Shown here: piece by piece, positions 14,597 through 16,919 of the stretch
Layout: the number at the start of each line of letters is the position of its first letter
Numbering within the stretch: the first letter of the stretch is position 1
NCBI GenBank assembly: GCA_009469685.1
Contig: SSTA01000055.1
Location: 1-17,196 of the forward strand
From: Azonexaceae bacterium
GTDB lineage: Bacteria > Pseudomonadota > Gammaproteobacteria > Burkholderiales > Rhodocyclaceae
Length of the DNA: 17,196 nt
Direction: 5' to 3'
The notes under the pieces: model-generated
The model's input: only the letters and a program-made list of their open reading frames with translations
Told to the model about the DNA's origin: nothing
Database searches by the model: none
Translations under genes and position numbers: made by a program

Positions 14597-14638
14597 GGCG
14601 TTCCCGGAGGGACGCGAACCCCTGACCTGCTCCTTAGG
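14597..14638 (-). pseudogene. 3' half of a tRNA-Arg (CCT-like) gene, probable attachment-site remnant
   Basis: Read on the minus strand, the fragment begins with the anticodon-loop bases CCTAA, then GGAGC (stem), AGGTC (variable), an imperfect T arm (AGGGG / TTCGCGT / CCCTC), CGGGAAC (acceptor 3' strand), G, and CC with C instead of the final A. Segment lengths match the intact tRNA-Arg(TCT) at 16843-16919 exactly, and 37 of 41 aligned bases agree. Upstream of the anticodon there is no matching 5' half, so it is not a functional tRNA. A break at the anticodon loop is typical of the att core used by tyrosine integrases. The CCT anticodon suggests the parent was tRNA-Arg(CCT), not the nearby TCT gene. 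Confidence 0.7.
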
Positions 14639-14697
14639 CAGGAAAACGAGGCATGGTGCGCTCACCAGGCGGTCCTATACACCGCATTCTGGGTTCG

Positions 14698-14775: not shown

Positions 14776-15144
14776 TTACTTTTCCGCAAAGGCCAGCGCC
14801 GCACCAAGATCGGGAAAGATTGTTAGCTTGCTGCGCGGGATCAGGCCAGACGACAGGTAAGCCTCCGTCATCCTGAGGACATCGCTTCGAGTGGTGACGA
14901 CGGCCACGGTGTGGGGTGGCTTGCTGAGCGCTGCCGCAGCGTCGGTCGCTGCCAGCTCCAGGACAAGATCTTCCGAAAATACCAGGCCGAGACAATCCGT
15001 AAAGTCGTGAATGATGTGCCGAACCGTATCGTACCGCTCATCCGCCTGGAATTCTCGAACTGCAGCGGCGACCTCCCGGTCAGAGCTATAGCCGGAATAA
15101 CGGACGTAGATTCGGTCGGCTTGCCAGGTGGTAACGTGCGCCAT
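14776..15144 (-). CDS. Small STAS/SpoIIAA-like protein of unknown function
   Basis: I start at the ATG at 15144, giving 122 residues; the upstream 66 codons of the longer frame are Arg/Gly-rich and do not look like protein. The product is soluble, without signal or membrane segment. Alternating strands and helices (DRIYVRYSG, VRHIIHDFTDC, HTVAVVTTRSDV, KLTIFPDLGAALAF) suggest an alpha/beta sandwich like SpoIIAA/STAS-type small proteins of proteobacteria; the pattern RYDTVRHIIHDF is the best clue. The ribosome binding site is weak (GGAAAA about 11 bases upstream). It is divergent from the 57-codon ORF and sits just beyond the tRNA remnant, so it may be element cargo. The CDS is likely, the fold is a guess, and no function is assigned. 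Confidence 0.7.
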   Translation of the reverse strand: MAHVTTWQADRIYVRYSGYSSDREVAAAVREFQADERYDTVRHIIHDFTDCLGLVFSEDLVLELAATDAAAALSKPPHTVAVVTTRSDVLRMTEAYLSSGLIPRSKLTIFPDLGAALAFAEK

Positions 15145-15347
15145 CGTGCCCGGTTTTCCAAAAAAACCAATCCAGTTCACTCGAAGTCCATCGGCGCCAG
15201 CAGAGACAAACGTGTTCCCGCTACCTTTGAGCCTGACAGGACCTCCGCGTAGCTTACCTTGGCTGGGGCGCTGTAGTCTTTGACGATGAAACAATGTCGT
15301 AATGACCGCGGGTAATAATCCGGTGACCAATCGCAAGGACAAGAGCC

Positions 15348-15521: not shown

Positions 15522-15826
15522 GCCTCACAAGTCTTCAATCCCAAGTTGCCGGCAACCTGTCACCGGGCGACACAGAGCGACCTGTCTTGGACGGTCCCGC
15601 ATGCCCTGGCCCGTCCAAAGTCTCGCAAAACTTGATTGCCGTTTCGCGCGCCGACCAGAACCGGTTCGTATAGCGCCGGACCCGCTGGGCGTCCGAAGAA
15701 TGGGGGCACCCGGCGCAACCGCCACGCCCCATGGGCGATGTCCAGGACAAGCTCGTCACGAATTGGCAACGGGAACTTGACCACGTCTCCAGGGAGTTTG
15801 ATGCCATCCTGGCTATCAGTCTGACC
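15522..15826. other. About 300 bp without a convincing gene
   Basis: Several frames on both strands stay open here but none has a ribosome binding site. The best is a 47-codon + strand frame from the ATG at 15731, which runs 48 bp into the 3' end of the zinc-ribbon gene; its upstream extension is broken by TAG at 15671. A perfect 12-bp palindrome GTTGCCGGCAAC lies at 15545-15556. The stretch could be a decayed gene, but I cannot identify one. Confidence 0.4.
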
Positions 15827-16006
15827 TCAAGCATGGGCAGGCTCCTTGAGGATTTCCCTTGCCGCTTGCCCTGACTCGCATGTTGCCTGAGGGAAGAGCG
15901 AATCGCAGTCGGGGCAGACGTAGTAGTTCTCGCGCTGATCAGCCGCTTCCTCAAGATCCACGGTGCCCAGGTGGGCGCGGCAATAGGGGCAGATGACGAG
16001 AGGCAT
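15827..16006 (-). CDS. 59-residue zinc-ribbon protein under a LexA-type box
   Basis: The start at 16006 is preceded by GGAGGAG with about 6 bases spacing, the best ribosome binding site in this region; a longer frame upstream runs through the operator and SRAP remnant and is rejected. The protein has two Cys pairs, CPYC at 6-9 and CPDC at 31-34, spaced as in a zinc ribbon, with an acidic middle (DLEEAADQRENYYV). A fifth Cys is at 43 and the tail is helical (GQAAREILKEPAHA). No signal or membrane segment is present. A LexA-type operator lies 15 bp upstream, so SOS induction is expected. It is divergent from a decayed SRAP gene. Small zinc ribbons often bind nucleic acid or a protein partner; no specific function can be assigned. 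Confidence 0.75.
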   Translation of the reverse strand: MPLVICPYCRAHLGTVDLEEAADQRENYYVCPDCDSLFPQATCESGQAAREILKEPAHA

Positions 16007-16021
16007 GCAAACTCCTCCGAA

Positions 16022-16041
16022 TACTGTTCTTAAATACAGTC
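16022..16041. promoter_or_regulatory. Putative LexA (SOS) box between divergent genes
   Basis: The site reads TACTGT, eight bases TCTTAAAT, then ACAGTC: a perfect CTGT-N8-ACAG core with an A/T-rich centre, one base off the full 20-bp palindromic consensus at the last position. It lies 15 bp upstream of the zinc-ribbon start and 35 bp upstream of the probable SRAP start, so one LexA dimer could repress both. A -10-like TATTTA on the minus strand falls inside the box, consistent with operator-promoter overlap. Confidence 0.75.
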
Positions 16042-16076: not shown

Positions 16077-16708
16077 ATGCATCCCAGGGACATCCCCCCG
16101 GTCCAAGGGGCCTTCGAGCGGCCCGGAAGATCGGCCGCCACAGCCAAGCGAGGTGGGTTTATAAACTCAATCCCCGGGCGCGAGGGCACTCCCTCCGCCT
16201 GAACCCTGCTGGCAATCTTGAACTGATCGTGGGTACCTGAAAGCTGCTCCCTGTCTGGTCGAAAACGCCGCGGCAAGCGTGCGCAACGCTGAACTGCCGC
16301 TCAGAGGATGCCGCAGCCAAACCCACGTTGCGCGAGACCCGGCGCCCTGGTCAGCGGTGCATCGTTCCTGCGGTCCAGTTCGACGAATCGTGGAGGGAGT
16401 CCGGCAAGAGAGTCGAGTGGCGTTTCCGGCATGCCAATGGTCATCCGCCGGGATTGGCCGCGCTCTGGACTACCTGGGTGGTTCAGACCCTCGGCGAAGC
16501 CGTCGAGAGAGACACCAGGCTCACCGTCAATGGCGGGCATCCGCCGATGATGACGAGGATGCAAAAGCCCGATCCGATGCTGCCACCGGATCGGCAGGGC
16601 AATCGCAGCATCGTCGCAATCGCGCCGGCTGACATCGAGCGGCGCTTTCTGGGGAGCGTCGAGGCCGTGAGACAAATGCTCGCTGCACCAGCTGTTGAAC
16701 TGATATGA
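16077..16708 (+). pseudogene. Decayed SRAP (YedK/HMCES-type, SOS-associated) gene
   Basis: SRAP proteins crosslink through Cys 2 to abasic sites in single-stranded DNA. The frame from 16241 to 16708 encodes an SRAP C-terminal two thirds: LLPVWSKTP, then NCRSE in place of the NARSE motif, RPGQRCIVPAVQFDESW, LAALWTTW, and MTRMQKPDP, ending PAVELI. The same frame upstream of an in-frame TGA at 16238-16240 still matches (LELIVGT before the stop, where relatives have a Trp). The N-terminal part appears in another phase from the ATG at 16077 (MHPRDIPPVQGAFERPG), stopping at 16200, so a frameshift lies at about 16150-16200. Position 2 is His, not the catalytic Cys. The RMHKP motif known in relatives is RMQKP here. 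Nonsense, frameshift and lost active-site residues together mark it as a pseudogene. It is divergent from the zinc-ribbon gene across the LexA box. Confidence 0.8.
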
Positions 16709-16842
16709 GCTGAACCGGAGTCGTACGCGGACGCGCTACCCCACGCCGACCACATTCCTCCGAAAAACCTACATGGCGCCTCCAGGACCGAAAACGCGGT
16801 GTAGCGGAAGGCCAGCGTAACAGCGGAAACACTTGGCATTGT

Positions 16843-16919
16843 TGGCGTGCCCGGAGGGACTCGAACCCCCGACCTGCTGCTTAGAAGGCAGCTGCTCTAT
16901 CCAGTTGAGCTACGGGCAC
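16843..16919 (-). tRNA. tRNA-Arg (anticodon TCT)
   Basis: Folded on the minus strand: acceptor GTGCCCG / CGGGCAC is perfect, D arm CTC/GAG, anticodon stem GCTGC / GCAGC with loop CTTCTAA (anticodon TCT), variable AGGTC, T arm GGGGG / TTCGAGT / CCCTC, discriminator G, and an encoded CCA. It is 77 nt including CCA. It follows tRNA-Pro by 23 bp on the same strand. Confidence 0.97.

Follow-up and report, generated by a model that had tools for sequence, protein, structure and literature searches.

We conclude, from its conservation at related loci, that a CTGT-N8-ACAG palindrome in a 17,196-nucleotide stretch of DNA from an Azonexaceae bacterium (contig SSTA01000055.1; the whole stretch is called the window below) is a putative LexA operator, and that the intact gene behind it, which encodes a 59-residue mini zinc-ribbon protein (here the ribbon), is very probably LexA-controlled. 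The explanation that best accounts for the data as a whole, and which we consider likely, is a LexA operator with the ribbon gene as its main client and the ribbon as a small accessory protein. Its setting makes the ribbon a strong candidate for a new protein of the damage response, and we conclude that its relatives form a putative, undescribed SOS protein family found, within the searches described here, only in Rhodocyclaceae. Beyond a few model species, SOS regulons have been mapped only sparsely, and annotation easily misses small proteins; in this instance the operator, its spacing and the operon position tie the ribbon family to DNA damage control, at the head of operons for a mutagenic polymerase and a helicase.

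In a pattern scan of the window, CTGTTCTTAAATACAG was the sole exact CTGT-N8-ACAG. With its surrounding letters it reads TACTGTTCTTAAATACAGTC, and in the direction of the ribbon gene CTGTATTTAAGAACAG, followed by 17 nucleotides (nt) that include GGAGGA, a ribosome-binding-site-like stretch, and then by the ribbon ATG (16006-16004, minus strand). Both half-sites are perfect and seven of the eight centre positions are A or T, in keeping with the perfect palindrome and A/T centre described in an earlier note on this DNA. The further statement of that note, that the box lies exactly between two divergent starts, is certain for the ribbon side; the start of the other gene, which encodes an SRAP protein, has itself been lost. 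On base composition only, an exact box is expected 0.18 times per 17,196 bases and 0.0006 times in a given 60 nt, and the window box stands close upstream of the ribbon, the position expected for a LexA-regulated gene.

A search of 5.8 billion proteins with the window ribbon returned two homologues, 97% and 61% identical, both of which keep all four cysteines; the former is a cluster of six member sequences on 20 contigs. A three-sequence profile gave weak matches in 19 of 297 genomes of the rhodocyclacean family, with an exact box in 15 of 21 loci (a number that includes two duplicate contigs of one genome), lying 2-24 nt ahead of the start in 14 distinct loci. Profile A2 then comprised 15 of the 20 distinct first-profile loci together with the window ribbon and the sequences P0001 and P0002, leaving aside four close duplicates and a protein whose tail is long and odd; the boxes were known beforehand and were not selected on. 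Across 395 Rhodocyclaceae genomes, this larger profile located the ribbon in 54, at 60 distinct places, all at an E-value (E) of 1.2e-9 or lower and followed by a gap to 4e-5. It gave 66 places in total, from which a duplicate (G294:C5) was dropped, and the 65 examined were the 60 family members and five controls with E of 4e-5 or worse. An order-level search recovered the ribbon in two of 399 genomes, both already known, and a class-level search in none of 369.

The box is conserved across this family. Upstream of the 60 ribbon starts, CTGT-N8-ACAG is exact in 36, has one mismatch in 17 and two mismatches in seven. By comparison, 200 dinucleotide shuffles of these regions gave means of 0.08 for exact boxes and 2.0 for boxes with no more than one mismatch. 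Near-identical relatives inflate such counts; when similar sequences are collapsed, the 39 dissimilar ribbons that remain have an exact box in 25 cases and one mismatch in nine. Among the five controls, unrelated zinc-ribbon matches, no box is exact or has a single mismatch. The remainder of these loci holds six further exact boxes in 629,302 bases, and only 14 of 1088 other open reading frames (ORFs) of at least 150 residues have an exact box upstream, 13 of them sharing the ribbon's own box and the last being lexA. For 34 of the 36 exact boxes the distance to the ATG is 14-27 nt, and the most common value is 17 nt (14/36), that of the window.

Two other sequence features were observed in these upstream regions. 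At seven of the 60 loci (L046, L047, L049, L050, L051, L052 and L101) a second conserved element, CATACAGT(A/G)TTG, lies 44-67 nt upstream of the ribbon start and upstream of the LexA box; it includes one ACAG half-site, and might serve as a promoter element or as an additional site for LexA. The region upstream of the window ribbon lacks the core of this element, CATACAGT. A deviating box, CCC(A/C)TACGAAA..ACAG, precedes the ribbons of three genomes (L097, L118 and L119) and the lexA of a fourth (L170), and is possibly a shifted LexA motif.

LexA itself scored above the curated cut-off in all 30 ribbon genomes examined among the relatives, and the promoter of lexA carries the same box in exact form in 24 of these, with one mismatch in three and in no recognisable form in three. 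Upstream of recA the box is exact in eight of 15 cases, has one mismatch in one and is missing from the other six, one of which is cut by a contig end. In one genome the ribbon gene lies about 1.6 kb from lexA. As a caution, the exact pattern occurs 6-28 times per genome in the 30 genomes, about as often as a reversed control pattern (9-37 times), so that it is the placement of the box, and not its mere presence, that carries the argument. The earlier note had named three findings that would speak against LexA control: no LexA in the genome, a LexA that recognises a different motif, and ribbon orthologues without the box. The relatives present none of these.

The genes that follow the ribbon point in the same direction. 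The next gene encodes UmuD and/or UmuC at 14 of the 60 loci, a UvrD/PcrA-like superfamily 1 (SF1) helicase at 25, and a second small protein, orf90, at five, with other or unclear genes at the remaining 16. The helicase count joins 24 loci assigned by cluster to one split gene (L105), and the UmuD/UmuC count of 14 stands beside the labelling of L112 as umuDC in the partner tree analysis, its UmuD appearing truncated. The UmuD and UmuC examples were named by Pfam and NCBIfam and the SRAP examples by Pfam, while the helicase example matches UvrD/PcrA/Rep models at scores below their equivalog cut-offs. In all 38 measured UmuD/UmuC or helicase loci (39 less the split L105), the next gene has an in-frame start codon no more than 16 nt from the end of the ribbon stop, and in 22 the ribbon stop and next start overlap by 4 nt; the ribbon is the apparent first cistron of an operon. 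Because 39 of the 60 loci have UmuD/UmuC or a UvrD-like helicase directly after the ribbon, the earlier proposal of the small gene as a candidate damage-inducible protein is strengthened. On the ribbon tree, 13 partner changes suffice, against 30.6 with shuffled labels, and the partners have therefore been mostly inherited, yet several times exchanged. Because the ribbon stays constant while its partners are swapped, the hypothesis can be tested directly.

SRAP genes occur near the ribbon at 13 of the 60 loci and are divergent from it in 10 of these. In four of the 60 the SRAP start, taken in the relatives as a Met-Cys (MC) start, and the ribbon start are 119-140 nt apart, and the box lies between them (one exact, three with one mismatch); in six further loci the distance is 268-985 nt. 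The earlier note's view of an operator shared with SRAP therefore needs correcting: SRAP is only an optional neighbour, and the operator is primarily that of the ribbon and its operon.

In the window itself, both partner genes beside the operator are broken (the coordinates are collected in the table below). The SRAP remnant is homologous to full-length SRAPs at E 3e-45, its longest open piece reaches a Pfam score of 22.1 bits, short of the cut-off of 27.1, and no MC start was found in its frame ahead of the homology, unlike the 13 SRAP ORFs of the relatives, all of which have one. The catalytic residue of SRAP is the N-terminal Cys2 of this MC start. The second broken partner is orf90, a third piece directly behind the ribbon, which is frameshifted and has lost several near-invariant residues. 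It seems that the window formerly had a close divergent SRAP-box-ribbon arrangement of the 119-140 nt type, in which SRAP is now broken and the 59-residue ORF remains open, as the earlier note had recognised. This state agrees with the note's proposal that the small gene is what the operator is now retained for, and also with a locus in decay.

Features of the window discussed in the text, with the basis of each assignment
Feature	Position	Strand	Basis and remarks
LexA-type operator (putative), CTGT-N8-ACAG	16024..16039 (extended form 16022-16041)	.	motif search and conservation at homologues
Intact 59-residue mini zinc-ribbon gene (CPYC...CPDC)	15827..16006, stop codon 15827-15829	-	first cistron behind operator
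Decayed SRAP gene	16130..16720	+	one-frame homology to full-length SRAPs; in-frame stop 16238; no MC start
orf90 remnant	15560..15834	-	ATG (15834-15832) overlaps ribbon stop; most homology (15811-15584) in another frame

It is conceivable that the whole locus is decaying in the window's lineage, with SRAP and orf90 already dead and the ribbon next. Two of the three genes beside the operator are indeed broken and the ribbon is patchy among relatives, being present in the 54 of 395 genomes mentioned above; however, the 97%- and 61%-identical ribbons both retain the four cysteines, and the operator keeps perfect half-sites at the commonest spacing. We consider decay of the whole locus rather unlikely.

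Another possibility is that the ribbon ORF yields no working protein, and is a translated leader that controls the next gene by coupling or attenuation. Its shortness, its place as first cistron and the proximity of the next in-frame start (at most 16 nt in 38/38 loci) would suit such a leader, as would the tails past the second CPxC, which vary freely in sequence and length. Other observations speak against it. In the window ribbon, CPYC occupies residues 6-9 and CPDC residues 31-34, with 21 residues separating the two knuckles, and C6, C9, C31 and C34 are invariant in all 77 aligned ribbon sequences; the protein is predicted from these to bind zinc. The ratio of non-synonymous to synonymous change (dN/dS) is at most 1 in 907 of 916 usable, non-independent pairs, and is 0.05-0.60 in the 26 closest pairs, where change is mostly silent relative to the available sites. 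Because the cysteines are constant, the closest pairs have such low ratios and the same ribbon stands ahead of unrelated enzymes, we argue for a probable working protein over a leader peptide, which now appears quite improbable.

Family members are mostly 58-90 residues long. An AlphaFold model of the window ribbon predicts a small beta fold of five short strands (mean predicted local distance difference test score, pLDDT, 73.5) with a poorly predicted tail, and its fold-level matches are generic zinc ribbons. Where the database listing gives names to ribbon proteins, these are only 'hypothetical' or of other uncharacterised types. The window ribbon does match PF10058 (Zn_ribbon_10, lunapark) at 26.7 bits against a cut-off of 24.2, and P0001 bears the same label. 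None of four other family members scanned matches this model at E 0.1; the hit seems to reflect a generic zinc ribbon and no kinship with lunapark, a eukaryotic endoplasmic reticulum protein. Left in place, the label would mislead automatic annotation.

The box might instead be a leftover SRAP promoter with the ribbon as a passenger, given that the divergent neighbour in the window is an SRAP remnant and that a linkage of SRAP to SOS is described in the portions of a published report drawn on here (PMC3765255). This is largely refuted and very improbable, SRAP being near in just 13 of the 60 loci while the box, with no more than one mismatch, is present in 53 and mostly at a fixed spacing to the ribbon start. 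That the box is bound by another S24-type repressor (phage or UmuD-like), or is a chance palindrome, is likewise highly improbable: a single box proves little when exact matches are about as numerous per genome as the reversed control, but the box precedes ribbon homologues far above chance, and most of these genomes have a box of this type before lexA as well.

The orf90 protein is an undescribed 90-residue beta protein, found directly behind the ribbon in five relatives, and is a candidate for a second uncharacterised SOS-linked family. At 13 loci with orf90 homologues and no adjacent ribbon (L182, L183, L185-L190 and L192-L196; L191, a partial orf90 match, was left out of the box count), the upstream box is exact in four and has one mismatch in nine, as raw counts, the shuffle control having covered the ribbon set only. 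Four of these 13 loci adjoin SRAP. At L134, whose orf90 homologue is L184, orf90 has an in-frame stop and is divergent from a ribbon-umuDC operon, and SRAP lies at a greater distance; this looks like another locus with a broken orf90 partner. The family adds a second candidate to the SOS small proteins.

The rest of the window, which has a guanine-plus-cytosine content of 65%, holds a general (type II) secretion gene cluster, as judged from its ORFs, followed by a short region with few genes and by two tRNA genes. Among 37 rhodocyclacean genomes, 12 contain a match to its GspD with E no higher than 1e-50, at a best identity of 63%, and the window is accordingly taken to belong near these Betaproteobacteria. 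Past the orf90 remnant, a 188-residue minus-strand ORF (14776-15342) has no Pfam match and is not obviously part of the SOS unit. By eye, 14600-14680 resembles part of the tRNA-Arg gene at 16843-16919, and is perhaps a tRNA copy that has decayed, or a former integration site.

A LexA operator with the ribbon gene as its main client allows us to propose a model for the locus. In SOS control, LexA is bound over the promoter until RecA-stimulated self-cleavage leads to induction. We infer that the box overlaps the promoter, and that LexA bound there, 17 nt ahead of the start codon, would keep the ribbon gene off. On DNA damage, activated RecA would bring about LexA self-cleavage, the ribbon would be made first, and the coupled downstream gene would follow, giving DNA polymerase V (pol V), a UvrD/PcrA-like helicase or orf90. 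The ribbon module might then dock on DNA, on the lesion-bypass or unwinding enzymes, or on LexA/UmuD, and tune them. In the window, the SRAP and orf90 neighbours would have decayed, leaving the ribbon and the operator. The simplest role to fit all contexts would be that of a small factor that docks on, or regulates, the enzymes present at damaged DNA. We give about an even chance to the ribbon acting as an accessory factor of SOS enzymes, and a lower one to its acting on any single named partner. It is also tempting, if somewhat short of probable, to regard the mini zinc ribbon, together with orf90 as a PH-like beta barrel, as an exchangeable LexA-controlled SOS accessory module in Rhodocyclaceae, which would sit beside SRAP or ahead of either pol V or a UvrD/PcrA-like helicase, and would recruit or restrain these enzymes physically at damaged DNA. 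If the ribbon does tune pol V or the helicase, it would offer a new handle on damage-induced mutagenesis.

How does this family compare with known systems? The zinc ribbons of ZifS, RPB9 and NrdR gave no clear fold-level match, and the 59-residue ribbon has no second domain like that of NrdR, which is an ATP cone. No described zinc ribbon in SOS operons appears among the literature matches listed, which cover the literature in part. The closest published contexts are the LexA-linked neighbourhoods in which, according to the same portions of PMC3765255, SRAP (YedK/DUF159) lies beside UmuC-UmuD and a RecD-related superfamily-I helicase, in agreement with the earlier note's placing of SRAP genes in SOS-linked neighbourhoods. 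SRAP, UmuCD, an SF1 helicase and the LexA link are common to both settings, whereas the ribbon described here is a separate first cistron ahead of UmuD/UmuC or a UvrD/PcrA-like helicase, and in most loci SRAP is not nearby. Those portions also describe two uncharacterised Zn-ribbon-like domains in SRAP-Ku neighbourhoods, to which the ribbon can be compared by description only; a single regular expression for a Ku-like motif found none in 2294 ORFs neighbouring ribbons.

The main alternative role for the ribbon would be that of a co-regulator like DdrR of Acinetobacter, a likeness drawn by description only. In the portions of PMC7273328 drawn on here, which mention no zinc ribbon for DdrR, this protein of 78-81 residues is lineage-restricted, damage-controlled and encoded beside a umuD-type gene, in a genus reported to be without LexA; the 30 ribbon genomes examined, in contrast, have LexA. 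The ribbon nevertheless resembles DdrR in being small, lineage-restricted and placed by a umuD-type gene, and DdrR may serve as a model for a small co-regulator of pol V genes.
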